DNA from: Terriglobales bacterium
GTDB taxonomy: Bacteria > Acidobacteriota > Terriglobia > Terriglobales > Acidobacteriaceae
Length of the DNA: 64,000 nt
Assembly: GCA_025980765.1 (NCBI GenBank)
Contig: JAICXB010000013.1
Location: forward strand, 1 to 64,000
Direction: 5' to 3'
A program made the position numbers and the translations under genes. The notes below the pieces were generated by a model. It searched no databases. It was not told the origin of the DNA and worked only from the letters and a program-made list of their open reading frames with translations. The first letter of the stretch is position 1. Each line of letters opens with the position of its first letter. Shown here piece by piece: positions 6,625 through 64,000 of this stretch.

Positions 6625-6667
6625 TGCTCACTATGAATTTCGCCTAACCTGCGGCACAATGCCCGAA

Positions 6668-14261: not shown

Positions 14262-14379
14262 GCGAAAAGGCGTTTCAGGTTTCAGGTTTAGAGTTTCAGG
14301 TTTTGGGCCAAGACTGACATGCAAATGCCGATGCGGCTTTAAACTGGAAACCTGAAAGTCGAAACCTGAAACGCCTTTG
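14262..14379. repeat. Family E inverted array
   Basis: The left arm has AAAGGCGTTTCAGGTTTCAG and more GTTTCAG words (7-nt period). The right arm has GAAACCTGAAACGCCTTT. The loop is about 40 nt. The array fills the gap between the MoxR gene and the next gene. Confidence 0.92.
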
Positions 14380-16874: not shown

Positions 16875-16899
16875 TGCAGTAGAGGATAGCAGAAGGACA

Positions 16900-17090
16900 A
16901 GCGATAAGCGAAATAGGCAATAAGCGATAGGCAATAAGCGATAGGCAATAAGCGATAGGCAATAAGCGATAGGCAATAAGCGATAGGCAATAAGCAGGGG
17001 CTTTCCTGGTTTTCCTCGCGCCCGTTGCTTTCGCTTAATCGCTTTTCAGTTCGGGTTTCGCTTATTGCTTACTGCTTATCGCTTATTGCT
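16900..17090. repeat. Family B inverted array with a 14-nt tandem core
   Basis: GCGATAG recurs at 16924, 16938, 16952, 16966 and 16980, exactly 14 nt apart, within repeated AATAAGCGATAGGC units. The right arm at about 17059-17090 has CGCTTATTGCTTACTGCTTA-type words. A further partial arm lies at 17023-17048. There are no CRISPR-like spacers. Confidence 0.95.
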
Positions 17091-17095
17091 GCTTT

Positions 17096-17944
17096 TTAGT
17101 ACTGATAGAAGCCACGACCGCTCTTCCTGCCCAGCCAGCCGGCATCGACCATCTTGATCAGCAGTGGGCAAGGCCGGTACTTTGGGTCGCCCAGGCCGTC
17201 GTGCAGCACGCGCATGATGTCGAGGCATACGTCGAGGCCGATAAAGTCCGCCAGCGTCAACGGGCCCATGGGATGCGCCATTCCCAATTTGAAAACTTCG
17301 TCCACCGCCTGCGGTGTTGCCACCCCCTCCATTACCGCGTACATGGCCTCATTGAGCAGCGGCATCAGCACCCGGTTGGAGACAAATCCCGGAGCATCGT
17401 TCACTTCTACCGGGGTCTTGCCCAGCTTCTCGGCCAGCGATTTCACCGTAGCGTAGGTTTCGTCCGAAGTGGCCAGCCCACGGATGACTTCCACCAGCTT
17501 CATCACCGGAACAGGATTGAAGAAGTGCATGCCGATCACTTTGTCAGGACGCTTGGTCAGGGCGGCAATCTTTGTAATGGAAATCGAGGAAGTGTTGGAA
17601 GAGAGGATGACCCCAGGATGGCAAATGCGGTCGATGTCGCGAAAAATTTCCGCTTTGATCTCGAACTTCTCCGTTGCGGCTTCAATGACGAAATCGCATT
17701 CCGCGAGTGCCTGACGCTCCAGCGATCCGCGAATCCGAGCGATGGCCTGCGCGCTCTCGCCGGCAGTGATCTTGTTCCTGGCCACCTCGCGTTCCAGGTT
17801 CTGGCGCACCGTGGCCATGCCGCGATCGAGATACTGCTGCGCGACTTCGCAGAGCACAACTTCGAACCCGCTGCGGGCAAAGACGTGCGCGATGCCATTG
17901 CCCATAGTGCCCGCGCCGATGACTCCAATTTTGTTGATGTCCAT
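17096..17944 (-). CDS. hbd: 3-hydroxybutyryl-CoA / 3-hydroxyacyl-CoA dehydrogenase
   Basis: This 282-residue protein has the usual length of single-domain 3-hydroxyacyl-CoA dehydrogenases. The N-terminal Rossmann motif is [13 protein letters not shown], binding NAD(P). Catalytic region residues are visible in [13 protein letters not shown] and [17 protein letters not shown] (catalytic His and the following Asn-Pro). The C-terminal domain has [18 protein letters not shown] and ends [11 protein letters not shown]. It interconverts 3-hydroxyacyl-CoA and 3-oxoacyl-CoA in fatty acid or butyrate metabolism. No other beta-oxidation gene is adjacent, so the pathway cannot be narrowed. It lies between two large repeat arrays. 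Confidence 0.92.
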
Positions 17945-24400: not shown

Positions 24401-24485
24401 GATCCCCCAATCGGGCCATGGGGCGATCGGTTCATCGGGTGATTTTCACTTCGCCCGATGGCCCGATCACCCGATCACCCGATTT
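24401..24485. repeat. Family C inverted array overlapping the permease 3' end
   Basis: The left arm has ATCGGGCC and ATCGGGTGAT words; the right arm has CCCGATGGCCCGATCACCCG with an 8-nt period. The permease stop codon at 24432-24434 lies in the left arm. Confidence 0.9.
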
Positions 24486-25916
24486 AAAAGGCCATTCCTG
24501 CCGCGAGCGCGCCCGCAGCATATATGCTGCCGTTCCCGCCACCGTCAGCACCGCCGCGAACAGCAATTCGCGCTGGAAATTGGCGCGGGAGATCAGGATG
24601 TAAACAAATCCGGCAAGCGCAGCCAGCGCTGGGATGGGATACAGCCACATGCGAAATGGCCGCACCACCTCCGGCCGGCGCGCGCGAAAGATCATGACTC
24701 CAATCGCCTGCAGGATGAACTGCATCAGGATGCGCACCACCACCAGCGCGGCAATGAGGTCGGCCAGGCGAAACATGCAGAGCACGCAAGTGATTCCCCC
24801 CATCCATAACAGCGCAACTGCGGGAAATTTGCCGCTGGGATTCAGCCGGGCGAAGGTGCGGAAGAAATTTCCATCGAGAGCAGCGGCATAGGGAATGCGT
24901 GATGCGCCCAGGAGCACAGAAAAAACCGAAGCAAATGCCGTCCAGATAATCAGGACCGCCGCAATCTGGCCGGCTCGCGTGCCGTAGACGCGCTGCATCA
25001 TCGTGGAAACCACATAGAAGCGGCTCTCAATCGCCGCGGCGCGATCGAGTTCGCGCCACGGCACCACGCCCAGAATGCTGATGTTCATCACGATATAGAT
25101 CGCGGCAACGATCAGAATCGCGAAAAGAATGGAGCGCGGAATGTTGCGTCCCGGCTCGCGCACTTCCGCGCCGAGGTAGGCGATGTTGTAGTAGCCCCAA
25201 TAATCGTAAGTGGCGACCAGCATCGCCGAGCCCAGACCGAGAAAAAATGCATGATTGGGTTGGAATGCACCCGCGGGAAAGTCGAAGGCCCGGGCCGCGC
25301 TGAAGTGACTGACGCCCGCCCAGATCACCCAGCCAATTGCTGCGAAGACACCCACCAGCAGCCAGGTAGAAATCTTTCCCGCCATGCTCACGCGACGATA
25401 GCCCAGCGCAACCGCAATTATGCAGCCGCATATCGCGACCGCGGTTCCGTGCGAGACCGCGATGGTGGCGCTGAGATTCCCAAACCAGGAAGATGTCCCG
25501 TGATGGCTAAACCACACCTTCTGCAGTGACGGGAAAATGAATCCTGCATATTGCGCGATGCCAACGCAGCCGGATGCCGCCGACAGCGGCGCGCTCAACA
25601 TGAGCTGCCAAACATAGAGAAACGACAGCAGACGACCGAAGCTTCTCGGCCCGTAAATCTCTTTCAAATATTCATAAGATCCGCCCGCGCGCGGCAGCGC
25701 TGCGCCCAGCTCCGCCCAGACCAGGCCATCGCAGATCGCGAGCAACGCGCCGAGGATCCAGCCCAGCATGGCTTGCGGACCGCCGCTGGCGTGCACGATC
25801 AGAGGAATGGTGATGAACGGCCCCACGCCGATCATCTCGGTCACATTGAGGGCAATGCTCTCGCGCAGACCAATTCCGCGCACGAGTTGTTCGGGCGAAG
25901 AGCTAGCTTTCACCAC
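24432..25916 (-). CDS. APC-family amino acid permease
   Basis: This 494-residue protein has about twelve hydrophobic segments. The opening EMIGVGPFITIPLIVHASGG matches the substrate-site helix 1 of APC transporters. Other family features are ELGAALPRAGGSYEYLKEIYG and the amphipathic YWGYYNIAYLGAEVREPGRN loop. It probably imports or exchanges an amino acid or polyamine. The start is unusual: GTG 25916 or 25913 lies in a family A arm (CCGTGGTGAAAG) and no Shine-Dalgarno sequence precedes it. The last 18 or so residues, ending GPSGEVKITR, and the stop TGA are encoded by a family C arm. The gene is therefore bounded by repeats at both ends. Confidence 0.85.
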   Translation of the reverse strand: MVKASSSPEQLVRGIGLRESIALNVTEMIGVGPFITIPLIVHASGGPQAMLGWILGALLAICDGLVWAELGAALPRAGGSYEYLKEIYGPRSFGRLLSFLYVWQLMLSAPLSAASGCVGIAQYAGFIFPSLQKVWFSHHGTSSWFGNLSATIAVSHGTAVAICGCIIAVALGYRRVSMAGKISTWLLVGVFAAIGWVIWAGVSHFSAARAFDFPAGAFQPNHAFFLGLGSAMLVATYDYWGYYNIAYLGAEVREPGRNIPRSILFAILIVAAIYIVMNISILGVVPWRELDRAAAIESRFYVVSTMMQRVYGTRAGQIAAVLIIWTAFASVFSVLLGASRIPYAAALDGNFFRTFARLNPSGKFPAVALLWMGGITCVLCMFRLADLIAALVVVRILMQFILQAIGVMIFRARRPEVVRPFRMWLYPIPALAALAGFVYILISRANFQRELLFAAVLTVAGTAAYMLRARSRQEWPFKSGDRVIGPSGEVKITR

Positions 25917-29006: not shown

Positions 29007-30902
29007 ATGGCCACTGCAGCCATTGCCACAGTCAAGCCGAAGCCGCCAAAGATGCAGCGTCTAAAGGGCGTTCTACCCGACGTACTCGAACTAGTGCGTC
29101 CGCATCGCGCGTTAATGCTTGGCGGGCTAGGACTGATGGCTATCAATCGCGTTGCCGGACTGGTCCTGCCCGCGTCTACCAAGTTCCTTGTCGACGACGT
29201 GATCATGAAAAAGCACCTCTGGCGGCTGCACCAGATCCTGCTGGCAGTGATCGCGGCGACCATCATTCAGGGCCTGACGTCATTCGCTCTTACGCAATTA
29301 TTGTCAAAAGCCGCGCAGCGGATGATCGCGGAGATGCGCCGCAAAGTGCAGGAGCACGTCGGTCGCCTGCCGGTTGCCTACTACGATTCCACCAAAACCG
29401 GCACTTTAGTCGCGCGAATTCTGTCCGATGTCGAAGGCATTCGCAACCTGATTGGCACCGGCATGATCGATTTTCTCGGTGGCGTGCTCACCGCAGTGCT
29501 CGCATTTGTAGTTCTTATGCGCATCAGCGTGATCATGACGACGGTCGCGTTCGTCTGCCTGCTGGTTTTCTCGCTGGCTTTGAAGCAGGCATTTGGCACG
29601 ATTCGTCCGATTTTCCGCGAGCGCAGCAAGATTTTTGCCGAGGTTAGTGGACGCCTGACCGAATCTCTTGGCGGCGTGCGCGTGATCAAGGGGTACCACG
29701 CCGAAGATCGCGAGCATCAAGTCTTCTCTTCCGGCGTGCAGCGGCTGCTGAACAACGTTTTGCGCGCGCTGACGGCCACTTCTCTGATGAGTTTGTCTTC
29801 TACTGTGCTGCTGGGAATGGTGGGCGCAGTAGTGATGTACCTGGGCGCGCGGCAGATTATTGCCGGCACCATGACCCTTGGCGGCTTCTTTACCTACACC
29901 ATGTTCATGGGATTTCTCATCGCGCCGGTGCTGCAGATCGTTAATATCGGCACGCAAATTACCGAAGCACTCGCCGGACTGGAGCGCACGCGCGAGGTGT
30001 TAAACGAAAATCCGGAGGATGTCGATCCACAAAGGACCACCGAATTGCCGGAGATCATCGGCAATATCGACTTCGAGAGCGTGAGTTTCGCGTACGAGAA
30101 CGGCAAAGAGGTGCTGCACAACATCTCCTTTCAGTCCGTTCCGGGAATGGTGACCGCCCTGGTAGGGCCGTCCGGATCTGGGAAATCGACAATCATCGGC
30201 CTGATTGCCGGCTTTTATAAGCCGCAGAGTGGACGCATCCTCGTCGATGGCATCGATCTCAGCGAGGTGCGGCTCGATTCTTACCGCAACCGGCTGGGTG
30301 TAGTGCTGCAGGAATCTTTTCTGTTTGATGGAACCATCCGCGAAAACGTGGCGTTTTCGCGTCCGAATGCGACGGAAGAAGAGATTCTCCGCGCCTGTCG
30401 CATCTCCCGCGTGGACGAATTCGCCGAACGTTTTGCCGACAAATACGACACTGTCGTTGGCGAACGCGGGGTAAAACTCTCCGGCGGACAACGCCAGCGC
30501 ATCTCCATTGCGCGCGCAATTCTCGCCGATCCGCGCATTTTGATCCTCGATGAAGCCACTTCCAGCCTCGATTCCGAGTCGGAAGCGCTCATTCAGGAAG
30601 GGCTTGCCTACCTGATGCGCGGGCGCACGACATTTGTTATTGCGCATCGCCTGAGCACAATCCGCCGCGCCGAGCAAATTCTGGTGGTGGAAGAAGGCCA
30701 AATCATCGAGCGCGGCACTCACGAGCAGCTATATGAGCGCGGCGGACGCTATTTCGATCTCTACACCAAGCAGCACGGCCTGGAAGAAAACCTGTTTCTC
30801 GCGCCAGGGGAAGGCGATTCCATCGCCGAAAGCGAAGAAGCAGCCACACGCGCAGCGCGCATTCCCAATTCGGTCGACATTCTTCGCGGGAACGTTACGT
30901 GA
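29007..30902 (+). CDS. ABC exporter (fused permease and ATPase)
   Basis: This 631-residue half-transporter has an ABC type-1 transmembrane domain (about 25-330, six helices) and an ATPase domain (about 350-590). Walker A is GPSGSGKST, the Q-loop region is VVLQESFLFDGTIRENV, the signature is LSGGQRQR and Walker B is ILILDEATSSLD, followed by the H-loop IAHRLST. It works as a homodimer or with a partner and resembles MsbA-type lipid or drug exporters, but the cargo is not decided. The stop codon lies at the left edge of a family B array. It stands alone. Confidence 0.93.
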   Translation: MATAAIATVKPKPPKMQRLKGVLPDVLELVRPHRALMLGGLGLMAINRVAGLVLPASTKFLVDDVIMKKHLWRLHQILLAVIAATIIQGLTSFALTQLLSKAAQRMIAEMRRKVQEHVGRLPVAYYDSTKTGTLVARILSDVEGIRNLIGTGMIDFLGGVLTAVLAFVVLMRISVIMTTVAFVCLLVFSLALKQAFGTIRPIFRERSKIFAEVSGRLTESLGGVRVIKGYHAEDREHQVFSSGVQRLLNNVLRALTATSLMSLSSTVLLGMVGAVVMYLGARQIIAGTMTLGGFFTYTMFMGFLIAPVLQIVNIGTQITEALAGLERTREVLNENPEDVDPQRTTELPEIIGNIDFESVSFAYENGKEVLHNISFQSVPGMVTALVGPSGSGKSTIIGLIAGFYKPQSGRILVDGIDLSEVRLDSYRNRLGVVLQESFLFDGTIRENVAFSRPNATEEEILRACRISRVDEFAERFADKYDTVVGERGVKLSGGQRQRISIARAILADPRILILDEATSSLDSESEALIQEGLAYLMRGRTTFVIAHRLSTIRRAEQILVVEEGQIIERGTHEQLYERGGRYFDLYTKQHGLEENLFLAPGEGDSIAESEEAATRAARIPNSVDILRGNVT

Positions 30903-31004
30903 CGAGCGATAAGCAATAGGCAGTAGGCGATAAGCAAGAGGTAAGCAATAAGTAAGCAATAAGCGACTGCCTATTGCTTACCGCCTATTGCTTATTGCCT
31001 CGTT
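30903..31004. repeat. Family B inverted array between convergent genes
   Basis: The left part has GCGATAAGCAATAGGCAGTA and related words; the right part has TGCCTATTGCTTACCGCCTA. It exactly fills the gap between the stops of the ABC exporter and the cyclase, where a bidirectional terminator would be useful. Confidence 0.93.
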
Positions 31005-32753
31005 TTACTTGCTGCTGAGCTGCCAAACGCCGTCCCAATCCTGCGCTGGAGGCGTGCTGATGAGGGTGCGAATGCGCCCGAGATACACTTCGCTGGGCTT
31101 GTCCGCGGGTTCAATGCGCAGACACTGCTCGAAACTAGCCTGCGCGCGCTGCCAATCGCGCTCCTGATACGCCTGCAGCGCCGACTCGAAGAAGTGTTTC
31201 AATTCGAAACGGGATGCGCTCAGCGCTCCTTTTGCGCCCATCAACTCGAATACCCGCACCGGTTCCGACTTGCCGACGACCTTTATGCGATCGATCTCGC
31301 GGGTTTCAAACCATTCCTGCGCCAGCCGATGCGTCTCTTCGCTGATCAATACCCGGGTTCCATACTGTTTATTGGCGCCTTCGAGACGCGAGGCGGTGTT
31401 TACGGTGTCTCCCATCACGGTAAAAGACTTCGAAACTGTGGATCCCACGGTGCCTACCAGCACTTCCCCAGTGCACAAACCGATGCGAACATTCACCGGC
31501 GGAACGGCCTTTCGTATGCCGGTAAGCTCCGGCAAACGCCGTTTCAGCTCCTCGATTTTGTCGAATTGTTCCAGTGTGGCTGCGCAGGCGAGGCGCGCAT
31601 GGCTTCCCGAATCGGTAAACGGAGGCCCCCAGAACGCCATTACTGCATCGCCAATGTACTTATCGATCACACCCTGATGGCGCACAATGGGTTCCGTAGC
31701 CAGCGAAAAGTACTCGTTCATTACGTTGACCAGGCCCGCCGGCGTAAGCATTTCGCCGAGATTGCTGAATCCCTGCACGTCAGAGAAGAACACGGTCATC
31801 ACCTGACGTTGCCCTTCCACCGCCTGCCCGTCTTCTGCAATCAACTTTTCCACGATTCTGGGGTCGAGATACTTGCCGAACGTGCTCTTGATCTGCTCTT
31901 TTACGCGCAGTTCGCGCACCATAGAGTTGAAGGATTTCGACAAATCGCCGATCTCATCGGCGCTGCTGACGAGCACCTGCACGCCCAAATCGCCGCCTTC
32001 GACTGCCTTGGCGCCGTCGCGCAGCGTGTGAATGGGCCTGACTAAGCGCCGGGTGATCGACGAGGCGACCAGTACTCCTGCCAAAAACGCCAGCATTGCC
32101 AGCAGAAAGTTCTCCGCAGCGAGGCGGAGTAGTCCGGATTCGGCACTTTCCAGAGCGCGTCCCGAGCCTTGCTCCACCTCTTCAATGCGGCTTCGAACTC
32201 CGTCGAGCGCGGAATCGAACTCATCCTGCTGACTTTCGATGTTATCGCGCAGCATGGAGAGAGACATTTGCCGGCCTGCAGTCGCCATTTCGAGCAGTTT
32301 TGTCCCCTGCTGATGCAGCATGCGATGCTGGCTGGCGAGACCTTGCAGCGCCGTATCCACTCGCGCCAGCGCCACAGCTTCATTCTTGGACGTGGTATTC
32401 GCGATTCCGCGCGCCAGAATCGCCTGCGCCCGGCCCACTTGCGCGTCCACTTCCGCCAGCTTCGCGCGATACAGCGCGGTTTCGGCAGCAATTTGCACGG
32501 GTTCCAGCGGACGCTCCTCCGCCATTCGCTGCACCCGCTCGAGGTATAACTCCTGTTCCAGGGCCGCAGCTTCGACGTTGTCCACGCAATCGGTGACCGG
32601 ATCGAGGGTTTCGGTGAGATCTACTACGGCCCGGTTCGCCAAGCGAATGCGCAAATATGAGTGCAACGCGGCGGCAACCATGATCACCAGCGTGATGGTG
32701 ACCAGTCCTACAATCTTTTTGCCGATTGAAAGCCGGCTAAGAACGTCCCGCAT
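31005..32753 (-). CDS. Membrane-bound class III adenylate/guanylate cyclase
   Basis: This 582-residue protein has a membrane helix (about 15-35), a periplasmic four-helix-like sensor with a run of Gln/Glu-rich coils (about 40-215), a second helix (about 220-240), HAMP (about 240-295) and a class III cyclase domain (about 320-500). Metal-binding Asp residues are in FFSDVQGFS and KYIGDAVMAFWG; the transition-state Asn and Arg are in GDTVNTASRLE. Lys in DKYIGD and Asp in MGDTVN match the adenine-selecting pair of adenylate cyclases, so cAMP is the likelier product. The C-terminal tail resembles one TPR motif. ATG 32753 is chosen; a TTG frame upstream adds an unlikely basic leader. Confidence 0.87.
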   Translation of the reverse strand: MRDVLSRLSIGKKIVGLVTITLVIMVAAALHSYLRIRLANRAVVDLTETLDPVTDCVDNVEAAALEQELYLERVQRMAEERPLEPVQIAAETALYRAKLAEVDAQVGRAQAILARGIANTTSKNEAVALARVDTALQGLASQHRMLHQQGTKLLEMATAGRQMSLSMLRDNIESQQDEFDSALDGVRSRIEEVEQGSGRALESAESGLLRLAAENFLLAMLAFLAGVLVASSITRRLVRPIHTLRDGAKAVEGGDLGVQVLVSSADEIGDLSKSFNSMVRELRVKEQIKSTFGKYLDPRIVEKLIAEDGQAVEGQRQVMTVFFSDVQGFSNLGEMLTPAGLVNVMNEYFSLATEPIVRHQGVIDKYIGDAVMAFWGPPFTDSGSHARLACAATLEQFDKIEELKRRLPELTGIRKAVPPVNVRIGLCTGEVLVGTVGSTVSKSFTVMGDTVNTASRLEGANKQYGTRVLISEETHRLAQEWFETREIDRIKVVGKSEPVRVFELMGAKGALSASRFELKHFFESALQAYQERDWQRAQASFEQCLRIEPADKPSEVYLGRIRTLISTPPAQDWDGVWQLSSK

Positions 32754-32902
32754 GGCAGTCGGAAGGGCCTTTCGCGCGCGGAAATGCCTAGCGCTGAACG
32801 ATTCTAAGCCGGAGATCGCGCGCAAAACCTCGCAATCTGCATGTCACTAGTAACTCTTTCGGCCATCCCTGGCGCAGCGCGCTGCACCAAATACGTCAAC
32901 GG

Positions 32903-33030
32903 CTTGCAATAAGCGATAAGCAACAGGCAATAAGCAACGACCGAAACAAGACCATTCCGACCGGTAATTTGTTCTTGTGCGTCGCTTTTGAGGTTTTTGC
33001 CTGTCGCTTATGGCCTGTCGATTATTGCTG
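32903..33030. repeat. Family B inverted array, partly decayed
   Basis: GCAATAAGCGATAAGCAACA and GCAATAAGC words face TTGCCTGTCGCTTATGGCCT and TATTGCTG. The 75-nt loop holds nothing recognisable. It fills most of the gap before the small basic protein gene. Confidence 0.85.
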
Positions 33031-36414: not shown

Positions 36415-36507
36415 GATCGGGTCATCGGGTGAAGTAAAAGTTGCCTCGCACCCGTTTTGGAATTCTTTTTTCACTTCACCCGATGACCCGATGACCCGAT
36501 CAGCCGA
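36415..36507. repeat. Family C inverted array
   Basis: GATCGGGTCATCGGGTGAAG on the left faces CTTCACCCGATGACCCGATG on the right. The loop is about 45 nt and itself contains CACCCGTTTTGG. Confidence 0.92.
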
Positions 36508-36527
36508 TTTTCCCAATTCCGCAAAAT

Positions 36528-41769: not shown

Positions 41770-41793
41770 AAGCTCCCATTTTGGGAGCTTTTT
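41770..41793 (+). terminator. Rho-independent terminator
   Basis: The stem AAGCTCCCA (41770-41778) pairs with TGGGAGCTT (41782-41790) around a 3-nt loop and is followed by a run of T. It would end the transcript of the small membrane protein gene. Confidence 0.85.
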
Positions 41794-41798
41794 CTTTA

Positions 41799-42018
41799 TC
41801 AGCTGCTAGCTTCTAGCTGCTGGCTTAAGTCAAAAGCTAACAACTTGCACGAACGAGACGAGACAAAGGGAGTCGGCCCAAGCCGTATTTTCCTGAATAA
41901 TCCATCATCCCTCGAAATATCCGTCCGATCCGTAACATCTGTTTCATCAGTGTGAGTTTTTTTTGGGCTTTTAGCTAGCAGCTAGCAGCCAGCAGCTAGC
42001 AGCCCGGAGCCAGCAGCT
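41799..42018. repeat. Family D inverted array with family H remnant in the loop
   Basis: The left arm at 41801-41827 has CAGCTGCTAGCTTCTAGCTG; the right arm at 41971-42018 has TAGCTAGCAGCTAGCAGCCA and more. A single-arm family H remnant (ATCCGTCCGATCCGTAACAT) lies at about 41918-41940. The right arm provides the stop codon of the STN-type gene. Confidence 0.9.
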
Positions 42019-43030
42019 ATTGAGGATTCTGCTGCGGCTGCTGCCCCTGCTGATTTTGTTGCTGTTGCTGCTGCTGACGTAGCCGCTGCAGCTCCTGCAG
42101 CAGTTGTTCCGGGGTCTTGATCTGGTTTGGTTGCTGCTGCCCATTGGGCTGGTTGGCGTTGTTTTCTGGCTGCGCCTGCGGCTGAGGCTCCGGCTGTGGC
42201 GGCGGCTCGGTCTCCGGCACATTGGCAGAGTTGTCGCCATTATCATCGGCGTTATTTTCTTCTTCCACCGCCTGCTGCGGCGGATTCGGATTGTAGCTGG
42301 GTCGCGCCTGCTGGTTGGGAACTCCGGCCACGGCGGTTCCGTTGGCCGCTCCTGGGGAATGCGGGCTGAGCACGATGCGATCCACGCTTCCCGGGGCATC
42401 GAGCGAACCCAACAAGATGTAATCGTAGCGTGATCCGGTGAGCAGGGAATTGAGCACATCCCGGGTGCTTCCTGGGCCGAACTGGCCAAAAACCCGCTCC
42501 GAATCCGGCGGGCTGCCTTCGAGATGAGCTCCGGTGGTGCGTCCAACCGCATGCAGAATGTCAGACAACTGGGAGTTGTCCGCAATGACCGTAAGCTGTC
42601 CGCTGGCATAGCTGATGCGTGGCGGATTTGCCGGCCGCGTTGCCGCGCCCATGACCCCTGATCCGGCGGGCTGAACTGCCTGCTGCTGCGGTACTTGTGC
42701 GGTATTTGCCTGCACTGGGCTAGTGGAACCCTGGCCTTGGGCTTGCGATCGCTCCCGGGCCGGCATCTGCGGCGTTTGGTTGGGGTTGATTCTCAGGGCG
42801 CCGCGCCGCTGCATCTCTTCCATGGACGGAGGAATCGGCGCCGATTGCTCTGGAACCTGCTGCTGGCCGCCCGGCTGCTGCCCGCGCTGGATCCGTGTGG
42901 AATAAGCGCCATTCGTCCGCGGAGTTTGCCGGAAAACTGGAGGCTGCGGGCGAGTATCGATCTGCTGCTGGCCTAACATCGGGCTACCCAGAAGCAGTGA
43001 CAGGCCGGTGATGAAGATGATTCGGGACAC
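42017..43030 (-). CDS. Secreted STN-domain protein with Gln/Pro-rich ends
   Basis: This 337-residue protein has a signal peptide (IIFITGLSLLLGSPMLGQQ) and a Gln/Pro/Arg-rich region (about 20-125). A segment resembling the secretin/TonB short N-terminal domain follows (SGQLTVIADNSQLSDILHAV to about residue 210), then a long Pro/Gln/Asn-rich tail with runs of Gln. STN domains occur in pilus secretins (PilQ) and TonB receptors. No secretin pore domain is present, so this may be a periplasmic accessory. The start is GTG 43030. The stop TAG is in the family D arm. Poly-Gln tracts may vary in length. Confidence 0.65.
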   Translation of the reverse strand: MSRIIFITGLSLLLGSPMLGQQQIDTRPQPPVFRQTPRTNGAYSTRIQRGQQPGGQQQVPEQSAPIPPSMEEMQRRGALRINPNQTPQMPARERSQAQGQGSTSPVQANTAQVPQQQAVQPAGSGVMGAATRPANPPRISYASGQLTVIADNSQLSDILHAVGRTTGAHLEGSPPDSERVFGQFGPGSTRDVLNSLLTGSRYDYILLGSLDAPGSVDRIVLSPHSPGAANGTAVAGVPNQQARPSYNPNPPQQAVEEENNADDNGDNSANVPETEPPPQPEPQPQAQPENNANQPNGQQQPNQIKTPEQLLQELQRLRQQQQQQQNQQGQQPQQNPQ

Positions 43031-43077
43031 GACTACGATTTATGCTACTCCAATAAAGTCCGGAAAACAGCGTTACT

Positions 43078-43222
43078 TTTCACCACTGAGCCACAGAGGA
43101 GACGGAGAAATGCTTTCATTTGCTGTGCCGATCCGCGGTCAGCTATCGACTGCCTCGTCCCAGACTTTGAAACTTCAAGCCTGGAACCTGAAACGCCTTG
43201 TACCTTCTCCGTGCTCTCGGTA
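43078..43222. repeat. Degenerate family A array with family E words inside
   Basis: TTTCACCACTGAGCCACAGA on the left loosely faces CTTCTCCGTGCTCTCGG on the right; AACCTGAAACGCC and a GAAACTTC word lie between. The complementarity is poor, which suggests an older copy. Confidence 0.6.
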
Positions 43223-43292
43223 TTACTAACGTTTGATTTCTTGTCATTTTGCGCAAAGTTTTTGGTTTGCCGATTAGAGTTCTCAAAAATCA

Positions 43293-43465
43293 TTTCACCA
43301 CGGAGACACGGAGAACACGGAGAAACCTTGAGTTGAATACGAAGGCGCAAAGATAAGGGTGATCTTCCCCCCCCCGTTTTCTGGTCTTCTCCGTGTGCTC
43401 CGTGCCTCCGTGGTGAACAGGTTTTGGTTGCGGCTCGGCTGCTCCGTGCCTCCGTGGTAAAAAGG
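43293..43465. repeat. Family A array with one left arm and two right arms
   Basis: The left arm TTCACCACGGAGACACGGAG (43293 onward) faces a right arm at 43386-43417 and a second right arm at 43441-43464 (CTCCGTGCCTCCGTGGTAAA). The loop contains a run of nine C at 43367-43375. The remaining 43466-43566 has no gene. Confidence 0.9.
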
Positions 43466-43566
43466 GCTCTATAAGAACGCGCAAAACCATCCGAGTTGCG
43501 GGAATTCGCATCTATAAACCCAAGGGGCTGCTCGCCTATTGCGCTGTCGCTCGTCCTGAGAGGTAT

Positions 43567-44577: not shown

Positions 44578-44771
44578 GAAGCGTTTCAGGTAAAGCGTTT
44601 CAGGTAAAGCGTTTCGAGAAAAGCGTTTCAAGAAACCGCGTTTCAGAAACCGCGTTTCAAAACTCCAACAGGGTTTGTTGCTATTGGGTTTGAAACGCCC
44701 TTTCTTGAAACGGTTCTTCTGAAACGGTTTACCTGAAACGGTTCTTCAGGAAACGCCTTACCTCAAACGCC
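44578..44771. repeat. Large family E inverted array (14-nt period)
   Basis: The left arm has six GCGTTTC units about 14 nt apart (GCGTTTCAGGTAAA and variants). The right arm has six GAAACG units (TGAAACGGTTCTTC and variants). The loop is about 35 nt. This is the largest uninterrupted array in the window. Confidence 0.95.
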
Positions 44772-48649: not shown

Positions 48650-48750
48650 AATTTCGTGATTTCGTGATTTCGAGATTTCGTAATTTGAAACCGATGCGAT
48701 CGACGGATCAACAAATCACGAAATCACCCGATCACGAAATCACCAAATCA
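48650..48750. repeat. Family C2 inverted array inside an operon
   Basis: Repeated GTGATTTC words with an 8-nt period on the left face CACGAAATCACCCGATCACG on the right. The array separates the ATPase and VWA genes and provides the ATPase stop codon TGA at 48748-48750. Confidence 0.93.
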
Positions 48751-50247
48751 GTTATAGGGTCTTCTCCCCCGCCCGGGAAATTCTTCCCGTTCTGGGGCTT
48801 TCTCGATGCGGCGCTGCTTTTCCGGGGCGGTGAACACCCGCTCCTCGGTGCGGCCGATGCGCTTGTGCGCGTACAGCCCTTCCAGAAGGAACTCGGCGGC
48901 AGACACCAGAACTTCAGCCTTGTCTTTGGCCTTCACGCCGACGGAATTCAATTTTTCCGCTAATCCCTGAATGCTCTTTAATCCTTCCAGCAATTCCGCG
49001 GAAGGCGCGGTGTCGCTGAACTTGAGTTGGCCACCAAGATCAAACCATTGCGTGATCTGCTGCATGTTGGCGTCTTTGAAGTACGTGTCGAACGTACGCG
49101 CAACCGCCAGGCGAATTAAATCGCGGACCACCGTGTCGGCGCCGCGCAACTCACCTTCATATTCGAGTTCGAGCTTGCCGGTGATGGAAGGCATCGCGCT
49201 GTAGATATCGCCAACGCGGGGAACGACGGTGGTTTCTCCGTTGCGCAGGGCTCGCCGTTCGGCATTGGAGATCACGTTTTCCATGGTCGAAATGGGCAGG
49301 CGCTGGCTTACGCCGGAACGCCTGTCTACGCGTTTGTCCTCGCGTGCGCCGAAGGCGATCTGCTCGACGATCTCGCGGATATATTGCGGCACGTGCAGCG
49401 CGTGTCCGTTGCGCTCAGCCCAGGCTTCCTGCTGGGTGATGGCAATGCCTTCTTCCAGCGTGCCGGCGTAATGCGTGCGGATTTCAGAACCGATTCGGTC
49501 CTTGAGCGGTGTAACGATTTTGCCGCGCGCGGTGTAGTCCTCAGGATTGGCGCTAAAGAGCAGAGCAACATCGAGATTCAAGCGCACGGGATAGCCCTTA
49601 ATTTGCACGTCGCCTTCCTGCATGATGTTGAATAGCGCCACCTGGATTTTTCCTGCCAGGTCGGGAAGCTCGTTGATGGCGAAGATGCCGCGATTGGCGC
49701 GTGGCAGCAGGCCGTAATGAATGGTCAATTCGCTGGCGAGATCGAGACCCCCGCGCGCGGCCTTGATGGGATCGATGTCGCCTACCAGATCGGCGACGGT
49801 TACGTCTGGCGTCGCGAGTTTTTCCACGTAGCGATTGTCGGGCGTGAGATACGCGATCGGAGTTGCGTCGCCTTTCTCGGCGATCAGCGTTCTGCAGCGG
49901 CGGCAGATAGGCTCGTACGGATTGTCGTGGATCTCGCAGCCCTGCACATAGGGCAGGTGCGCATCGAGCAGGCCAGTGAGCGCGCGCAGAATGCGACTCT
50001 TCGCCTGTCCACGCAAGCCGAGCAGAATGAAATTGTGGCGCGACAGCACGGCATTGACGATCTGCGGTACGACGGTGTCGTCGTATCCGACAATGCCCTG
50101 AAAAACCGGCTCGTTGGCCCGCAACCTGGCAATCAGGTTGTCGCGGAGTTCGTCTTTCACTCGCCGCGTACGCAGCCGCTGTTCACTAAATTCGCTCTTT
50201 CTAAGTTCTCCGAGAGTGGTTGGAAGGTTCATTACCGATGAGATCAC
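48748..50247 (-). CDS. ChlI/MoxR-like AAA+ ATPase
   Basis: This 499-residue protein has an AAA+ domain with Walker A GLRGQAKSR (the GxxGxAKS form of MoxR proteins) and the Walker B-like FAINELPDL. A characteristic SANPEDYTARGKIVTPLKDR region follows. A Cys pair in EPICRRCRTL may bind metal. The C-terminal part has Lys/Glu-rich coils and ends RRPYN just before a repeat-derived stop. Start GTG 50247 follows a perfect TATAAT (50256-50261) by 8 nt; ATG 50232 is an alternative. It works with the downstream VWA protein. Confidence 0.88.
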   Translation of the reverse strand: MISSVMNLPTTLGELRKSEFSEQRLRTRRVKDELRDNLIARLRANEPVFQGIVGYDDTVVPQIVNAVLSRHNFILLGLRGQAKSRILRALTGLLDAHLPYVQGCEIHDNPYEPICRRCRTLIAEKGDATPIAYLTPDNRYVEKLATPDVTVADLVGDIDPIKAARGGLDLASELTIHYGLLPRANRGIFAINELPDLAGKIQVALFNIMQEGDVQIKGYPVRLNLDVALLFSANPEDYTARGKIVTPLKDRIGSEIRTHYAGTLEEGIAITQQEAWAERNGHALHVPQYIREIVEQIAFGAREDKRVDRRSGVSQRLPISTMENVISNAERRALRNGETTVVPRVGDIYSAMPSITGKLELEYEGELRGADTVVRDLIRLAVARTFDTYFKDANMQQITQWFDLGGQLKFSDTAPSAELLEGLKSIQGLAEKLNSVGVKAKDKAEVLVSAAEFLLEGLYAHKRIGRTEERVFTAPEKQRRIEKAPEREEFPGRGRRPYN

Positions 50248-50261: not shown

Positions 50262-50279
50262 CGCGGCAGGAAAAAGCAC

Positions 50280-50489
50280 GCGATAAGCAATAGGCGATAA
50301 GCAATAAGCAAACGCACGAAACTAGCGACAAGCGGTAAGTGATAAGCAGGAAGCTGGGATTTCGTAGCTGGAAGCGCTTCGTCTATTTTGACGGCCCCGC
50401 CTATTGCCTACTGCCTATTGCTTATCGCTTACCGCTTATTGCTAATTGCTTATCGCTAATTGCTTATCGCGTATTGCTTATTGCTCGCG
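50280..50489. repeat. Family B inverted array between divergent genes
   Basis: The left arm has GCGATAAGCAATAGGCGATA-type words; the right arm at 50400-50489 has CTATTGCCTACTGCCTATTG and TTATCGCTAATTGCTTATCG. The loop holds a short family D-like pair (GAAGCTGG...TAGCTGGAAGC). It is one of the longest arrays. Confidence 0.95.
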
Positions 50490-50509
50490 AAGCGAATACA
50501 ACCAGCCTC

Positions 50510-51298
50510 ATGCAATTGCGCGATCGCATCGTAGTTATCACCGGCGCGTCCATGGGGATTGGCGAGGCTTTGAGCCGCGAGTTTCTCGCGCATGGCGCTC
50601 GCGTGATGATGAGTTCCCGCGACCTCTCCCGGCTGAAGGAAGCACAGGCGCGAGTTGGCAGCCTGGATCGCAGCGTGGTATTTGCGTGCGATGTCGGAAA
50701 ACGGGCTGACATCGACGCTCTCGTGTCTAGGACGCGGGAACGCTTCGGCAGAATCGATGTTTGGGTGAACAATGCCGGCTACGGAATTCTTGATTCCATT
50801 TCGGTAATGTCCATGGACGAATGCCGCCGCATGTTCGACACCAACCTCTTCGGCGCGATCGAGTGCATGCAAGCCGTGGTTGCCATAATGAAAGCGCAAG
50901 GCGGCGGCACAATCATTAATGTATCGAGCATTGTCGGACATCTGCCGATGCCGCACATGGGCGCCTACTCAGCGACGAAGCACGCGCTCAATGCCATCAG
51001 CCAGGCCGCGCGTCTGGAGCTTGAACCCGTCGGCATTCGCGTGATCTCTGTGTGTCCGGGACGCATTCGCACCAACTTCGGCGCGAACACCGTTCTTGGC
51101 AGAGAAGGCAAGCGGCTGGCCGAATCGTTCAATCAGGGAATCAGCGCCGAGCGCTGCGCTCGCGCCATCGTTCGCGGATGCGAGCGCGACGCCCGCGAGA
51201 TCTTTGTCCCCTGGCACGGATGGTGGCTTAGCCATCTTTACGAGATGGCTCCACAGGTGGTGGAGTTTGGTATGCGACGTTATTTGAAGAAAAATTAG
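50510..51298 (+). CDS. Short-chain dehydrogenase/reductase
   Basis: This 262-residue protein has the NAD(P)-binding TGASMGIGEA motif (about 11-20), NNAG in VWVNNAGYGI and catalytic Ser/Tyr/Lys in NVSSIVG and YSATKHA. An Arg after the first beta strand (SSRDLSRL) suggests NADPH. The substrate is not decided. ATG 50510 is chosen because the family motif begins 10 residues later; the longer frame reads through the repeat as hydrophobic residues. TACAAC at 50497-50502 lies 7 nt upstream. Confidence 0.9.
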   Translation: MQLRDRIVVITGASMGIGEALSREFLAHGARVMMSSRDLSRLKEAQARVGSLDRSVVFACDVGKRADIDALVSRTRERFGRIDVWVNNAGYGILDSISVMSMDECRRMFDTNLFGAIECMQAVVAIMKAQGGGTIINVSSIVGHLPMPHMGAYSATKHALNAISQAARLELEPVGIRVISVCPGRIRTNFGANTVLGREGKRLAESFNQGISAERCARAIVRGCERDAREIFVPWHGWWLSHLYEMAPQVVEFGMRRYLKKN

Positions 51299-51314: not shown

Positions 51315-53375
51315 CTATTGCTTTACCGACTGCACCAGCTTTTCCACTGGCGCGACCGCCATTAACAGCAGTTCTGATTGCGGCTTCTTCATCGGTTCGA
51401 GTTGCGCGATCTGCTGTTCGCGCCAGCCCGGCGGCGCAGCCTGATTTGCAGCGAACAACTCGAGTGCCTGAAGACCGATATCTCCAATAGCCGACAGATT
51501 GCGCGAGATGGCTGCGTCTTCACTCAGCAAGCTCGATTGCAATGCCGGCGCGAGCCGCTCGTCGTTGTATTTCCAGGCCGTCATCCACTGGCGCGCCGCC
51601 GCAATCTGGTCGGGCGAAGCAGTTCCGGCGACAATCTGGTCAATCAGCGCGGAAAAATCGCGGGCTACGCGGCTCTCCGGGGGTATCGAATCGGGAAGCC
51701 GGTTAAGGGGGATATCGGCGTTATATCGTCCGGAGCTGGAGCGAGCGTAGCGCTTGACTGGCTCGACCATGTCGGCGAGCACGCTCAGCGGATCTACTCG
51801 ACCTGGCGCGAGCCGCTCGCGCATCTCCCGCAGCGCCGAGTGATGTGTCAGGCCCACCGAATCGAGCCAGTCGCTTATCACCTCAAGTCTGCGGTACATC
51901 GAAGCTACATCATTGACCTCCCCAGGGGACCAAAGCCGCTCGGCAATAGCGGCATTGCGCGGCCAGATGCGCGAGTCCACGTTTTCTGCCGTAACCATCT
52001 CTGACCACATGCAGGCCTCACCGCCAAGAACCATCTTCTGCTGTTCTGGAGACAACGTTGCCGCGTCTCCGCTCAGCGGGTCGACCATGTAATGTTTCGC
52101 CGCCGGTTCGACAAGGTCCAGGTAGTAGCCGTTTGAGAGCAGGGCCCGATGCCCATTTCGCACTGCCGTGGCCTCGGATTCCTGCCCGCGCCAGGATTGC
52201 ACCACCACGTCTTTCGGCAGCCCTGGGTTGAGGACCTCATCCCAGCCTATCGGCGTCTTCTTGTATTTCTTGATGATTTTCACCACGTGCTGATTGAAAT
52301 AGGTCTGAAGATCAGCATTGGAGTTGAGCTCGTGCGATTTCATGAACGCCTGAATCTTCGGGTTGGCGTCCCACTGTTTGCCGTTCACCTCATCTCCCCC
52401 GAGGTGGAAGAACTCGTCGGGAAAAAGATGCGCCATTTCACCAATGAATTTGTCGAGAAACTTGTAAGTCGATTCTCGAGTGGGATCCATTGCCGGATCG
52501 AAGACTCCCCAGCGCTTCTCGATTTGGTAAGGGCCGGGGCCGGAAGCCAGCTCGGGATAACCAACGAACCAGCTCTGGCTATGTCCGGGCATATCGAATT
52601 CCGGCACTATGCGAATGCCGCGCTCGCGCGCGTAGGCGATGAGATCTTTAATTTCGTCCTGCGTGTAGTACTGGCCATTGGAGCCGAGTTCCTGCAGTTT
52701 CGGATACTTCTTACTCTCCACCCGAAAGCCCTGATATTCGCTGAGATGAAAGTGCAGCACGTTCATCTTCACGGCTTCCATTCCGTCAAGCGTGCGCTCT
52801 ACAACCGGGACCGGCATCCAATGACGTCCGGCATCCAGCAGCAGACCCCGCCAGGGGAAGCGCGGTGCATCTTCGATGTGGACTGCGGGAAAAGCGAATC
52901 CTTGCGGCCCCGGAGCAGCCAATTGCAGCAGCGTCTGCAAACCGTGAATTACGCCCAGGGGATTCGGCGCGGTGAGCTTTGCGCCCGCCTGGTTCACATC
53001 AAGGACATAGGATTCGTCTTCGCCGAGTTCTTGAATTTTTTTTCCATTGTGTTCGGCGCGGATGGTGAGGGTCGCAGCCCCGGATTTTGCCGGCGTGAAG
53101 CGCAACGGAATGCCAGTTTCTTGGGAGAGACGGTGCACAAATCGCTCCGCCGCACCGCGCACCCGCGCGTCACCGGACCCGGAGATCGCTATTGTGAAGT
53201 CCGAATTGATGACTAATTGGCCGGAGCCGGTCTGAATGTTTGCCGGCCAGGGCATCAGGTTGAGCTGTGGCTGCTGCGAGGCTCGAGGAGTTTGCTGGGG
53301 GTGCGCGACGGGGGTTAACACGAAGGTCACTAGGGCAACACAGAAGGACACAAGGAGTGAACTGAGCTTAGGCAT
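51315..53375 (-). CDS. Secreted GH20 beta-N-acetylhexosaminidase
   Basis: This 686-residue protein has a signal peptide, a GH20b N-terminal domain (about 35-150) and a GH20 TIM barrel (about 155-500). The catalytic Asp-Glu pair is in FHLGGDEVNGKQW. Substrate-site features FPWRGLLLDAGRHWMPV and MWSEMVTAENVDSR are typical. A C-terminal helical region (about 520-686) follows. It releases terminal GlcNAc or GalNAc from glycans or chitin. Residues about 6-21 (SLLVSFCVALVTFVLT), the hydrophobic core of the signal peptide, are encoded by a family A2 repeat arm. No Shine-Dalgarno sequence is visible. Confidence 0.92.
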   Translation of the reverse strand: MPKLSSLLVSFCVALVTFVLTPVAHPQQTPRASQQPQLNLMPWPANIQTGSGQLVINSDFTIAISGSGDARVRGAAERFVHRLSQETGIPLRFTPAKSGAATLTIRAEHNGKKIQELGEDESYVLDVNQAGAKLTAPNPLGVIHGLQTLLQLAAPGPQGFAFPAVHIEDAPRFPWRGLLLDAGRHWMPVPVVERTLDGMEAVKMNVLHFHLSEYQGFRVESKKYPKLQELGSNGQYYTQDEIKDLIAYARERGIRIVPEFDMPGHSQSWFVGYPELASGPGPYQIEKRWGVFDPAMDPTRESTYKFLDKFIGEMAHLFPDEFFHLGGDEVNGKQWDANPKIQAFMKSHELNSNADLQTYFNQHVVKIIKKYKKTPIGWDEVLNPGLPKDVVVQSWRGQESEATAVRNGHRALLSNGYYLDLVEPAAKHYMVDPLSGDAATLSPEQQKMVLGGEACMWSEMVTAENVDSRIWPRNAAIAERLWSPGEVNDVASMYRRLEVISDWLDSVGLTHHSALREMRERLAPGRVDPLSVLADMVEPVKRYARSSSGRYNADIPLNRLPDSIPPESRVARDFSALIDQIVAGTASPDQIAAARQWMTAWKYNDERLAPALQSSLLSEDAAISRNLSAIGDIGLQALELFAANQAAPPGWREQQIAQLEPMKKPQSELLLMAVAPVEKLVQSVKQ

Positions 53376-53448
53376 TGGCTACAGGGTAATTTTCTGGGGC
53401 TCTCCGTGACCTTAGATTTTGTCCTTTGTGCCCTTCGTGTTAACCCGC
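53311..53448. repeat. Family A2 inverted array whose arms are coding at both ends
   Basis: The left arm (53311-53357, GGTTAACACGAAGGTCACTA and following words) is translated on the minus strand as the GH20 signal peptide core. The right arm (53401-53448) encodes the last 12 residues and stop of the DUF190 gene. The arms are clear complements with scattered mismatches. Confidence 0.93.
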
Positions 53449-53780
53449 TCATAAACATACTTAATGACTTCCACGTCCGAGACGACGATCAGGCCTTCCT
53501 TCAGCATTGGTTCAAGCGCCGGAATGAGTTCGTCAATCTTCTCTTGCGTATCGATGATGATCACGGTTATGGGAGCGTCGGAGGAGAACGACAAAAGATG
53601 GCGTTCGCGGCGGATTCGGGTGCTGGCGCCGTATCCACCGATCCCGCGATAGACGGTGGCGCCGGCGATGTCGAGCTTGCGACAGGTTTCCAGAATGGCA
53701 TGATGCAGTGGCTTGCCTTCGCAGCGATCGTTCTCGCCAAAGTGGATGCGAATCATCTTGCCTCTGCCTTCCAGCTTCAT
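53412..53780 (-). CDS. DUF190 protein (single domain)
   Basis: This 122-residue protein has one DUF190 domain, a PII-like fold associated with fluoride exporters. The core is IRIHFGENDRCEGKPLHHAI and ATVYRGIGGYGAS. AAGGAG lies 6 nt before ATG 53780, which overlaps the stop of the previous gene (ATGA), so it is translationally coupled. The last residues (RVNTKGTKDKI) and stop come from the repeat arm. Its N-terminal KLEGRGKM resembles the linker before the second domain of the upstream protein, suggesting duplication. Confidence 0.88.
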   Translation of the reverse strand: MKLEGRGKMIRIHFGENDRCEGKPLHHAILETCRKLDIAGATVYRGIGGYGASTRIRRERHLLSFSSDAPITVIIIDTQEKIDELIPALEPMLKEGLIVVSDVEVIKYVYERVNTKGTKDKI

Positions 53781-54505
53781 CGCGGCTCCTTGCGTCGTTC
53801 CTGGCGATGAAAATCGTGGGTGTACTTGATGATGTCCACGTCGGAGAGCACGACCAGGCCTTGCGTGATCATGTCGTCGAGCACGGGAAGAAAGCGGCGC
53901 AGCTTTTCTTCGGTATCCACTGCACTTAGCACGACAGGATTGTCCTGGGAAAGACCGAGAGGCGCGTCTTTGCGGACGCGGCGATTGGCGCCGTATCCCA
54001 TGATCCCGCGATATACGGTCACACCGGCGATGTCGTTGGCGCGAAAACTTTCCAGTACTGCCTGATGCAGCGGCTTATCGCGCCAGCGGTCGCTCTCGCC
54101 GATAAAGACGCGCATCATCTTCGCTTTGCCCTGGAGCTTCAGCGCCGGCGGCGGAGCTTGCTTCCCGGCCTTGGACGGACCGGCGGGTTTGAGGACGGTC
54201 GTGTCTTGAACATCGATGAGTCCGCTGCCCACCATTTCGTAGAGTTTTGGCAGCAATGCTTCAAGCTTTTCCGCTTCCTCAGTGAACTCGATCTTGATGG
54301 GCAGATTTTCGCTGAGACGCAGGATGCGGGTGGTGTGCAGATGATGGTCGGCGCCGAATCCCGCAAGTCCACGAACGACAGTCGCCCCGGCCACGCCGCG
54401 ATAGAACAGATAATCGAGGACCGCGGCATAGAGTGCGTTGCCGTGATATTGCTGGTCCTCGCTCACGTAGACGCACACCTTCTTCGCTGGTCCAGGCTTC
54501 AGCAC
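53777..54505 (-). CDS. Tandem DUF190 protein (two domains)
   Basis: This 242-residue protein has two DUF190 domains: about 10-105 (CVYVSEDQQYHGNALYAAVL, GATVVRGLAGFGADH) and about 132-235 (MMRVFIGESDRWRDKPLHQA, GVTVYRGIMGYGANR). A Pro/Lys/Ala linker joins them. The start is GTG 54505 with GGAGG 4 nt upstream. It follows crcB by 19 nt and is probably controlled by the same fluoride riboswitch. The role of DUF190 proteins in fluoride resistance is not established; they may sense or gate CrcB. Confidence 0.9.
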   Translation of the reverse strand: MLKPGPAKKVCVYVSEDQQYHGNALYAAVLDYLFYRGVAGATVVRGLAGFGADHHLHTTRILRLSENLPIKIEFTEEAEKLEALLPKLYEMVGSGLIDVQDTTVLKPAGPSKAGKQAPPPALKLQGKAKMMRVFIGESDRWRDKPLHQAVLESFRANDIAGVTVYRGIMGYGANRRVRKDAPLGLSQDNPVVLSAVDTEEKLRRFLPVLDDMITQGLVVLSDVDIIKYTHDFHRQERRKEPR

Positions 54506-54524
54506 TCATCCTCCGAGGAAATCT

Positions 54525-54896
54525 TCATACGGCCCTCCCACACATCATTCCTACCCAAACGCAAATGAATCCCAGCGCCACGCTCAGTCCCAGGTTCAGG
54601 AAGCCGATCATCAGAGCGCCATCGCGCATGGCCATCAGGGTTTCATATTCGAAACTGGAGAAGGTGGTGTAGCCGCCGATAAATCCGATAGGAATGAAAT
54701 AGCGCCAGTTGGGGCTGAGATGGGTCCGCTCGGTGAGAATGGCCATAGTTAGTCCGATCAGAAAACAGCCCGAGCAGTTGACGACGAAAGTGCCGTACGG
54801 AAATCGAGTTCCCGTGCGGTCGTAAACCAGACCGCCGATCCAGAAGCGCGCAACCGCGCCGAGAAAGCCGCCCAATCCTACAATGAGGTATCTCAA
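54525..54896 (-). CDS. crcB: Fluoride channel CrcB (Fluc)
   Basis: This 123-residue protein has four membrane helices and CrcB/Fluc features: GGFLGAVARFWIGG, FPYGTFVVNCSGCFLIG (the conserved Gly-Thr-x-x-x-Asn) and GFIGGYTTFSSFEYET with the twin Phe pathway residues. It exports fluoride as a dimer. The start is TTG 54896 because AAGGAG lies 6 nt upstream and the product then begins MRYLIVGLGG like other CrcB proteins; the frame from TTG 54914 would put that site inside the gene. It is first in a fluoride operon. Confidence 0.93.
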   Translation of the reverse strand: MRYLIVGLGGFLGAVARFWIGGLVYDRTGTRFPYGTFVVNCSGCFLIGLTMAILTERTHLSPNWRYFIPIGFIGGYTTFSSFEYETLMAMRDGALMIGFLNLGLSVALGFICVWVGMMCGRAV

Positions 54897-54971
54897 GAGT
54901 TGCTCCTTCGACAACCACTGAAATGGAGCGAATCGCGGGAGGCTGGAAACGACACACCTACCGTGAAATCG

Positions 54972-55023
54972 CAGTAGGAGTCATCTTCCCGATGAGGGCG
55001 GTTAAGGGTGAACTCCAACACCC
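54972..55023 (-). ncRNA. Fluoride riboswitch (crcB motif)
   Basis: On the minus strand, GGGTG and CACCC form the first stem with loop TTGGAGTT. CCGCCC...CGGG forms the second stem, and GATGACTCCTACTG closes the motif. GGAGT in the first loop pairs with ACTCC downstream, the pseudoknot of the fluoride riboswitch. The order and spacing closely follow the Thermotoga petrophila example. It lies in the crcB leader, 7-10 nt after the promoter. Confidence 0.92.
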
Positions 55024-55032
55024 GTCAATTGA

Positions 55033-55071: not shown

Positions 55072-55215
55072 CCCCAGGGACTAACACGAAGGTCACGAAG
55101 TTAGACTTCAGGGTCACGGAGAAACTGGGGGAAATGTTACGGATTGTGAATTTACTACTATCTTGTTCTCCGTGTCCTTATGTGTTGCCTTCGTGGCCTT
55201 CGTGTTAACCCCGGG
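55072..55215. repeat. Family A2 inverted array between TPR gene and crcB promoter
   Basis: ACTAACACGAAGGTCACGAA and GGGTCACGGAG on the left face CTCCGTGTCCTTATGTGTTG and CCTTCGTGTTAACCCC on the right. It starts 2 nt after the TPR gene stop and ends about 10 nt before the crcB -35 box, so it may insulate the two units. Confidence 0.92.
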
Positions 55216-55217: not shown

Positions 55218-55526
55218 TTATGCCAGCTCATCCAACATCGCTTCCATTTCGGAACGAGCGTGCTGGTTTCCGGTACGCTGCGCGCAGGCGATTCCATTCT
55301 GCAGCATGGCACGGGCTTCATCCTCACGTGCAGATTTGATCAGAGTTTGCGCCGCCATCTGATAACCGGCAGTGTAGTCGGGATTGGCTTCGAGCAGTTT
55401 GGAAAATTCGACGAGAGAAGTCTCAGTTTGACCGCGGTTGGCGTATTCCATCGCCAACCCGTAACGCGCGAACGCGTCGGTCGGATTTTGCGCGAGAACT
55501 TCCTGCAGCATGGCAATGCGGTCCAT
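55218..55526 (-). CDS. Small TPR protein
   Basis: This 102-residue protein has two TPR-like helix pairs (AFARYGLAMEYANRGQTETS and PDYTAGYQMAAQTLIKSARE). TPR proteins mediate protein contacts. It follows purQ by 2 nt on the same strand and is probably co-transcribed. The 3' end abuts a family A2 array. Confidence 0.82.
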   Translation of the reverse strand: MDRIAMLQEVLAQNPTDAFARYGLAMEYANRGQTETSLVEFSKLLEANPDYTAGYQMAAQTLIKSAREDEARAMLQNGIACAQRTGNQHARSEMEAMLDELA

Positions 55527-63640: not shown

Positions 63641-63674
63641 GGCGGTCTGGGCTTTGATTCTATAGGAGGACTGA

Positions 63675-63822
63675 TTTCACCACGGAGGCACGGAGAACAC
63701 GGAGCAAAGGGTTTTGAATTCTTGATTTTTGAATATAAAACAAGGGACGACAGTGCCCAATCAACATTCAAAATTCAACATTCACGATCTTCCTCCGTGT
63801 TCTCCGTGCCTCCGTGGTGAAT
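63675..63822. repeat. Family A array enclosing a family J array
   Basis: The outer arms are TTTCACCACGGAGGCACGGA and CTCCGTGCCTCCGTGGTGAA. The inner part has TTTTGAATTCTTGATTTTTG facing ATTCAAAATTCAACATTCA in 7-nt steps. It ends exactly at the trpD stop. Confidence 0.93.
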
Positions 63823-64000
63823 TCAATTCTTTCGCGTGCTCGTGAACTCGATCAGTTTCGCCAGCTTCGCTTGGGCAGCGCCGGAATCGAGGGACTCTGC
63901 TGCGAGCGGGATCCCCTCGGCGATGGAATCGGTTTTGCCCGCAACGACCAGAGCAGCGGCTGCATTGAGCAGCACCACATCACGTCGCGCCGATTTCTCG
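63823..64000 (-). CDS. trpD: Anthranilate phosphoribosyltransferase, C-terminal part (partial)
   Basis: The frame runs off the right edge. The visible 58 residues, including [39 protein letters not shown] and the end STRKN, match the C terminus of TrpD, which joins anthranilate and PRPP in tryptophan synthesis. It heads the leftward cluster that includes trpS. Confidence 0.88.

Follow-up and report, generated by a model that had tools for sequence, protein, structure and literature searches.

The window, a 64,000-nt stretch of a 3.5-Mb draft acidobacterial genome (G000; 95 contigs, 83.8% complete), contains a gene for a GH20 enzyme next to a fluoride operon, with a palindromic repeat of the A2 family at their junction (Table 1). 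The GH20 catalytic domain retains its GGDE motif, and those of the enzyme's relatives that carry organism names come mostly from Acidobacteriota subdivision 1/Terriglobales. The operon is identified by the presence of both a crcB riboswitch and crcB. Between the TPR gene and GH20 it comprises the riboswitch, crcB, the double-DUF190 gene, and a single DUF190 gene. Because one A2 element lies at 53311–53448 and another at 55078–55212, the operon is bracketed by A2 at exactly both junctions. The window also holds at least five further palindrome families made from tandem 7–9 bp words (ATAAGC, CACGGAG, CCCGATCA, AGCTAGC, and GTTTCAG types).

Table 1. Features at the GH20/fluoride-operon locus and further word-palindromes in the window
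Feature	Position	Strand	Remarks
GH20 beta-N-acetylhexosaminidase	51315–53375	-	686 aa; Pfam PF00728, E 8.6e-98; HLGGDE intact
Putative GH20 signal peptide, MPKLSSLLVSFCVALVTFVLTPVA	53304–53375	-	n- and h-region from A2, c-region ancestral
A2 palindromic element, GH20 side	53311–53448	.	inverted arms, RNA fold; 1 of 42 paired own-genome elements
GH20-side arm	53311–53351	-	minus-strand translation VSFCVALVTFVLTP, putative signal-peptide h-region
DUF190-side arm	53423–53448	-	encodes RVNTKGTK of the DUF190 C-terminus (translation)
DUF190 protein	53412–53780	-	PF02641, E 8.4e-33; last 11 residues repeat-encoded
Double-DUF190 protein, fluoride operon	53777–54505	-	PF02641 twice
crcB fluoride exporter	54525–54914	-	PF02537, E 8.4e-29
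Fluoride riboswitch	54968–55031	-	RF01734, 40.5 bits vs gathering score 34
Second A2 element, TPR/fluoride-operon junction	55078–55212	.	inverted orientation vs first element
TPR protein	55218–55526	-	directly precedes GH20 in 4/5 congeners
Further word-palindromes, group 1	16899–17104, 30895–31013, 32888–33029, 50269–50485		
Further word-palindromes, group 2	12929–13039, 43070–43472, 63667–63832		
Further word-palindromes, group 3	24442–24493, 36460–36526, 48650–48757		
Further word-palindromes, group 4	5193–6698, 41785–42019		
Further word-palindromes, group 5	14264–14377, 44578–44769		

Two gene ends within one repeat

The GH20-side element has inverted arms of 24 nt (53312–53335 and 53423–53446) that are 88% complementary. 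Its RNA fold has a computed energy of −50.4 kcal/mol, 15 kcal/mol below the level of dinucleotide shuffles (z = −4.0, 0/200), and no promoter above chance was found within it. The initial annotation had proposed that a noncoding-type repeat was taken into coding sequence at both ends of this array. Indeed, conserved ORFs are predicted to enter the repeat in frame at the N-terminus of GH20 and at the C-terminus of DUF190, and both gene ends are written in A2. The DUF190 ORF ends ...KYVYE|RVNTKGTKDKI*, and the tail after KYVYE is repeat, while DUF190 relatives have KYVHQEGVRSQP-like ends without it. The right arm thus encodes the DUF190 end as proposed, but 11 residues plus one base lie in the element rather than the 12 residues first counted.

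On the GH20 side, the predicted start (ATG 53375) is in the loop of the element, and an in-frame TAG stands two codons upstream. Residues 1–21, MPKLSSLLVSFCVALVTFVLT, form the n-region (MPK, with one Lys at position 3) and the putative h-region, all written in the element. That the left arm supplies the hydrophobic core of a predicted signal peptide was borne out: residues 6–21, SLLVSFCVALVTFVLT, derive from 53313–53360, the loop-side flank plus the left arm. The putative h-region reaches a Kyte-Doolittle 12-residue maximum of 2.73, within the range of the orthologue N-regions (median 2.36 over 59 segments, a few of which are false motif hits). By eye, the best candidate cleavage site is TPVA|HP, with Pro at −3, and no canonical AxA site is seen; orthologues have LFA|Q. 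No Shine-Dalgarno sequence is visible at ATG 53375, and the congeners also have no strong one. Random sequences act fairly often as secretion signals, as was reportedly found in a classic study of yeast invertase. A hydrophobic core of 2.7 preceded by Lys3 is therefore a plausible signal, and we regard the A2-encoded stretch as a putative Sec signal by which GH20 would be exported.

All candidate GH20 starts before M41 (ATG 1 and GTG 9, 16, and 19) lie inside the element. A search for a start downstream of the repeat, which would speak against a repeat-encoded N-terminus, returned only M41, the Met of the NLMPxPA motif conserved in orthologues.

The A2 family and its hydrophobic frame

The arm motif TTAACACRAAGGNCAC occurs in 68 exact copies in the genome, 34 on each strand, compared to 0 for the reversed control, so the A2 array is not a product of chance. 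Across 60 relatives, more than one copy is found only in congeners (0 to 16, versus 68 here). We located 42 paired elements in the genome, four of them inside the window. Their consensus, GGGGTTAACACGAAGG...CCTTCGTGTTAACCCC, is 109 nt long and near-palindromic, and elements of the family span about 80–130 bp made of 9-bp words. A2 shares with MITEs the terminal inverted repeats of a short multicopy element. However, none of the 42 elements is flanked by direct repeats of 5 nt or more (mismatched flanks, 1.5%), and without such target-site duplications an assignment to MITEs is not supported. Repeat-type sequence strings of A2 had no match in the literature searched; within it, the family is apparently undescribed, as are apparently many short palindromic families of the phylum Acidobacteriota.

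From both ends outward, the consensus translates as FSVTL(F/C)FSFVTFVLT in one of three frames, which predisposes A2 to make hydrophobic cores. A second outward frame gives LRDLRVN, and stop codons block the third. A Kyte-Doolittle 12-residue maximum of at least 2.2 occurs in 7.6% of A2 reading frames versus 0.7% (0.73%) in shuffles, an approximately tenfold excess. The favored frame combines a start codon with a core of at least 2.0 in 16% of readouts, compared to 2.5% of random genomic stretches, and the core stays at or above 2.0 in 80% of trials after four random substitutions. Because hydrophobicity is a default property of this frame, as the 80% retention indicates, it is not in itself evidence of selection. 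In a test for selection on the GH20-side arm, its hydrophobicity was as expected by default.

Coding use of the repeat appears exceptional. In a census of overlaps with gene ends (59 elements at retrieved loci of G000), the GH20 element alone lacks a plausible alternative start beyond the repeat, so that A2 arrays seldom give rise to export signals. At the other N-terminal overlaps, a better start lies downstream; at locus L087, a second signal peptide, MKLPYSRTKFFLPCLFLCLL, follows the overlap. The initial annotation held that words of A2 and of a second family, B, read as hydrophobic residues in some frames, so that arrays could create export signals by chance. For A2, the bias of one outward frame agrees with the first half of this claim, but the second half was overstated, given 1/59 elements. 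For the B family, the candidate N-terminus, in an SDR ORF at 50339, looks over-extended. About 57 residues at the beginning of this ORF (50339–50512) come from a GCTTATTGCC array, whereas MQLRDRIVVITGAS is the probable conserved start. The ORF has therefore likely been extended too far, with its true start lying downstream, and its N-terminus is probably not made from repeat.

A2 also leaves a recurrent C-terminal tail. Unrelated proteins at four loci (L037, L043, L050, and L051) end GVNTKVT... or GVNTKVTK because A2 overlaps the stop region of their genes. Separately, one orthologous intergenic site carries A2 in G000 (L088 1981–2091, G000:C84:24984), a diverged A2-like palindrome in congener G001, and an unrelated AGCTTAG-word palindrome in congener G003 (L211, L212), as if it had been rewritten with different word families.

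Ancestral state and rearrangement of the locus

GH20 is 67–72% identical in five congeners, all of which have a native signal peptide from non-repeat DNA (for example, MRFLVLLCVFSATSLFA|TQ and MKFLCVLLLFPAALLFA|QQ, then PWNLMPVPAK). None of the orthologues shares the N-terminus of the GH20 in the window, and its N-terminal 37 residues gave no significant tblastn match among the searched GH20 loci. Comparison with the congeners thus shows the ancestral start codon, n-region, and h-region to be missing from the junction. We rejected an A2 insertion into an intact signal peptide, as the DUF190 flank of the element contains no remnant of the native n-region. The pN/pS against congeners is 0.22–0.27 for the mature part, which points to purifying selection on this part of the enzyme. 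The value spans the whole divergence and is therefore no proof that the enzyme has stayed functional since the rearrangement.

The TPR gene and GH20 are adjacent in G001, G002, G004, and G005, with a spacing of about 42 nt in G004. The DUF190 proteins of the fluoride operon are present in 92/300 family genomes, and no close homologue of them was found in any of the five congeners. The complete fluoride-resistance operon (53412–55031), absent from congeners, is a possible A2-bracketed gain. Compared with 117 other arms, the GH20-side arm is most similar to the outer arm of the TPR-side element (37/41). Across the genome, 21 arm pairs between different elements score at least 37, and this match therefore does not decide whether a single element was split to give the two outer arms.

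Only the GH20 side clearly recurs, among located elements, as an A2 site common to G000 and the congeners. In 108 orthologues for which the N-terminal side is available, A2 words occur near GH20 only in G003, where 48 nt separate the end of an element (L069 7282–7379) from the GH20 start downstream, and both this start and the signal peptide are intact. The TPR neighbor is gone from GH20 in G003 and lies on another contig. With A2 by GH20 and a displaced TPR gene in G003 as well, the TPR-GH20 linkage is broken next to A2 in two species.

We consider it probable that A2 came to occupy the 5′ end of GH20 in a rearrangement that brought in the A2-bracketed fluoride operon, and that the A2-encoded stretch is a Sec signal sequence. 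Such an event would differ from simple capture: the element appears to sit at the rearrangement breakpoint, the ancestral signal peptide is missing, and the fluoride operon has come in. In this soil acidobacterium, an intergenic palindromic repeat would have overwritten the front of a sugar-cleaving GH20 gene. The rearrangement would have put the A2-bracketed operon between the TPR gene and GH20, moving the latter from downstream of purQ-TPR to downstream of the fluoride operon. As it stands, the GH20 ORF begins in the A2 loop, follows the arm in the (F/L)V-rich frame, and continues without a frame break into the ancestral c-region and the mature enzyme. At the other end, DUF190 has lost its final codons and its stop to this element. 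Lys3 and the 18 mostly hydrophobic residues after it could then act as a Sec signal, leaving the enzyme exported or membrane-tethered. GH20 may be read from the fluoride-operon transcript. Ribosomes finishing DUF190 might open the 5′ arm of the hairpin, exposing the GH20 start in the loop, and ribosomes at that start would go on through the 3′ arm, translating it into the signal core. An extended version of this scheme seems to us unlikely. It casts A2 elements as bidirectional donors of signal-peptide cores and as recombination seams, with the operon moving as an A2-bracketed unit and the seam rebuilding the GH20 export signal and bringing fluoride-riboswitch control through hairpin-dependent translational coupling to DUF190.

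The rearrangement may instead have destroyed the signal peptide, the A2 frame being incidental and the enzyme either unmade or cytoplasmic. We judge this somewhat unlikely. A cytoplasmic form could be made from M41, whose ATG is in frame and opens the mature domain; the lack of a Shine-Dalgarno sequence at 53375 and of a good AxA site fits a destroyed signal peptide, and the other ORFs reaching into A2 elements look over-extended. However, M41 belongs to a motif conserved in orthologues and is not a new start, and initiation there would truncate GH20b, a domain beginning at about residue 38. Moreover, the 686-aa frame is intact, the catalytic motif is kept, and the GH20 branch is not unusually long and shows no acceleration.

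If the stretch instead targets the membrane uncleaved, a released enzyme would have become N-terminally anchored. The long hydrophobic stretch (residues 4–21), the Pro22 that follows, and the missing AxA site, in contrast to LFA|Q in orthologues, would fit an anchor, but a cut at A24 (PVA|H) is still possible, and we hold permanent anchoring to be quite unlikely. A false join of short reads at a repeated element is conceivable in a fragmented, incomplete draft with a multicopy A2. Yet exact matches between the junction elements and any other element reach only 26–28 nt (26 for the GH20 element, median 19), and neither the DUF190 nor the GH20 frame is broken at the junction, which makes misassembly extremely unlikely; A2 also occurs independently at the 5′ side of GH20 in G003.

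Relation to known repeats in coding sequence

Repeats inside signal peptides have precedent. In enterobacteria, they form parts of predicted signal peptides and membrane segments (Delihas; PMC2759123, PMC2229807). The Yersinia RU-2/YPAL element forms part of the signal peptide of YPO1552, which SignalP calls strongly; the protein is putatively exported, and its function is unknown (Delihas 2007, PMC2759123; PMC2229807). At the GH20 locus, where the rearrangement junction is mapped, an unrelated acidobacterial repeat would give a conserved enzyme its start codon, n-region, and h-region. In the RU-1f (ERIC frame shift) membrane-protein fusions (PMC2759123), as in A2, one frame is rich in hydrophobic residues and favors transmembrane predictions. 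A2 is a different element, and because it is near-palindromic, its hydrophobic run reads outward from both ends.

Rickettsia palindromic elements are insertions of roughly 150 bp inside many ORFs and are translated in phase with the conserved proteins that carry them (Ogata 2000/2002, reviewed in PMC10969869). A2, likewise a palindromic repeat, is predicted to be read in frame in the conserved GH20 and DUF190 ORFs, but it lies at gene ends and is only exceptionally coding. A2 also resembles REP/GTAG palindromes, whose class of transposase genes is listed in Acidobacteria (PMC3733652), in being a high-copy palindrome between genes, and differs from them in its about 80–130 bp of 9-bp words. What is new here is the repeat family and the orthologue-polarised replacement of an enzyme's signal peptide. 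Compared to the Yersinia and Rickettsia cases, proof of signal function is weaker and the before-and-after comparison is cleaner. Signal peptides are seldom observed to arise or be replaced while the ancestral state can still be seen. At this locus, five congeners reveal the native state, and the putative replacement traces to a repeat whose consensus already encodes a hydrophobic core. The locus thus offers a concrete example of how repeats may seed export signals and mark the seams of gene gain.
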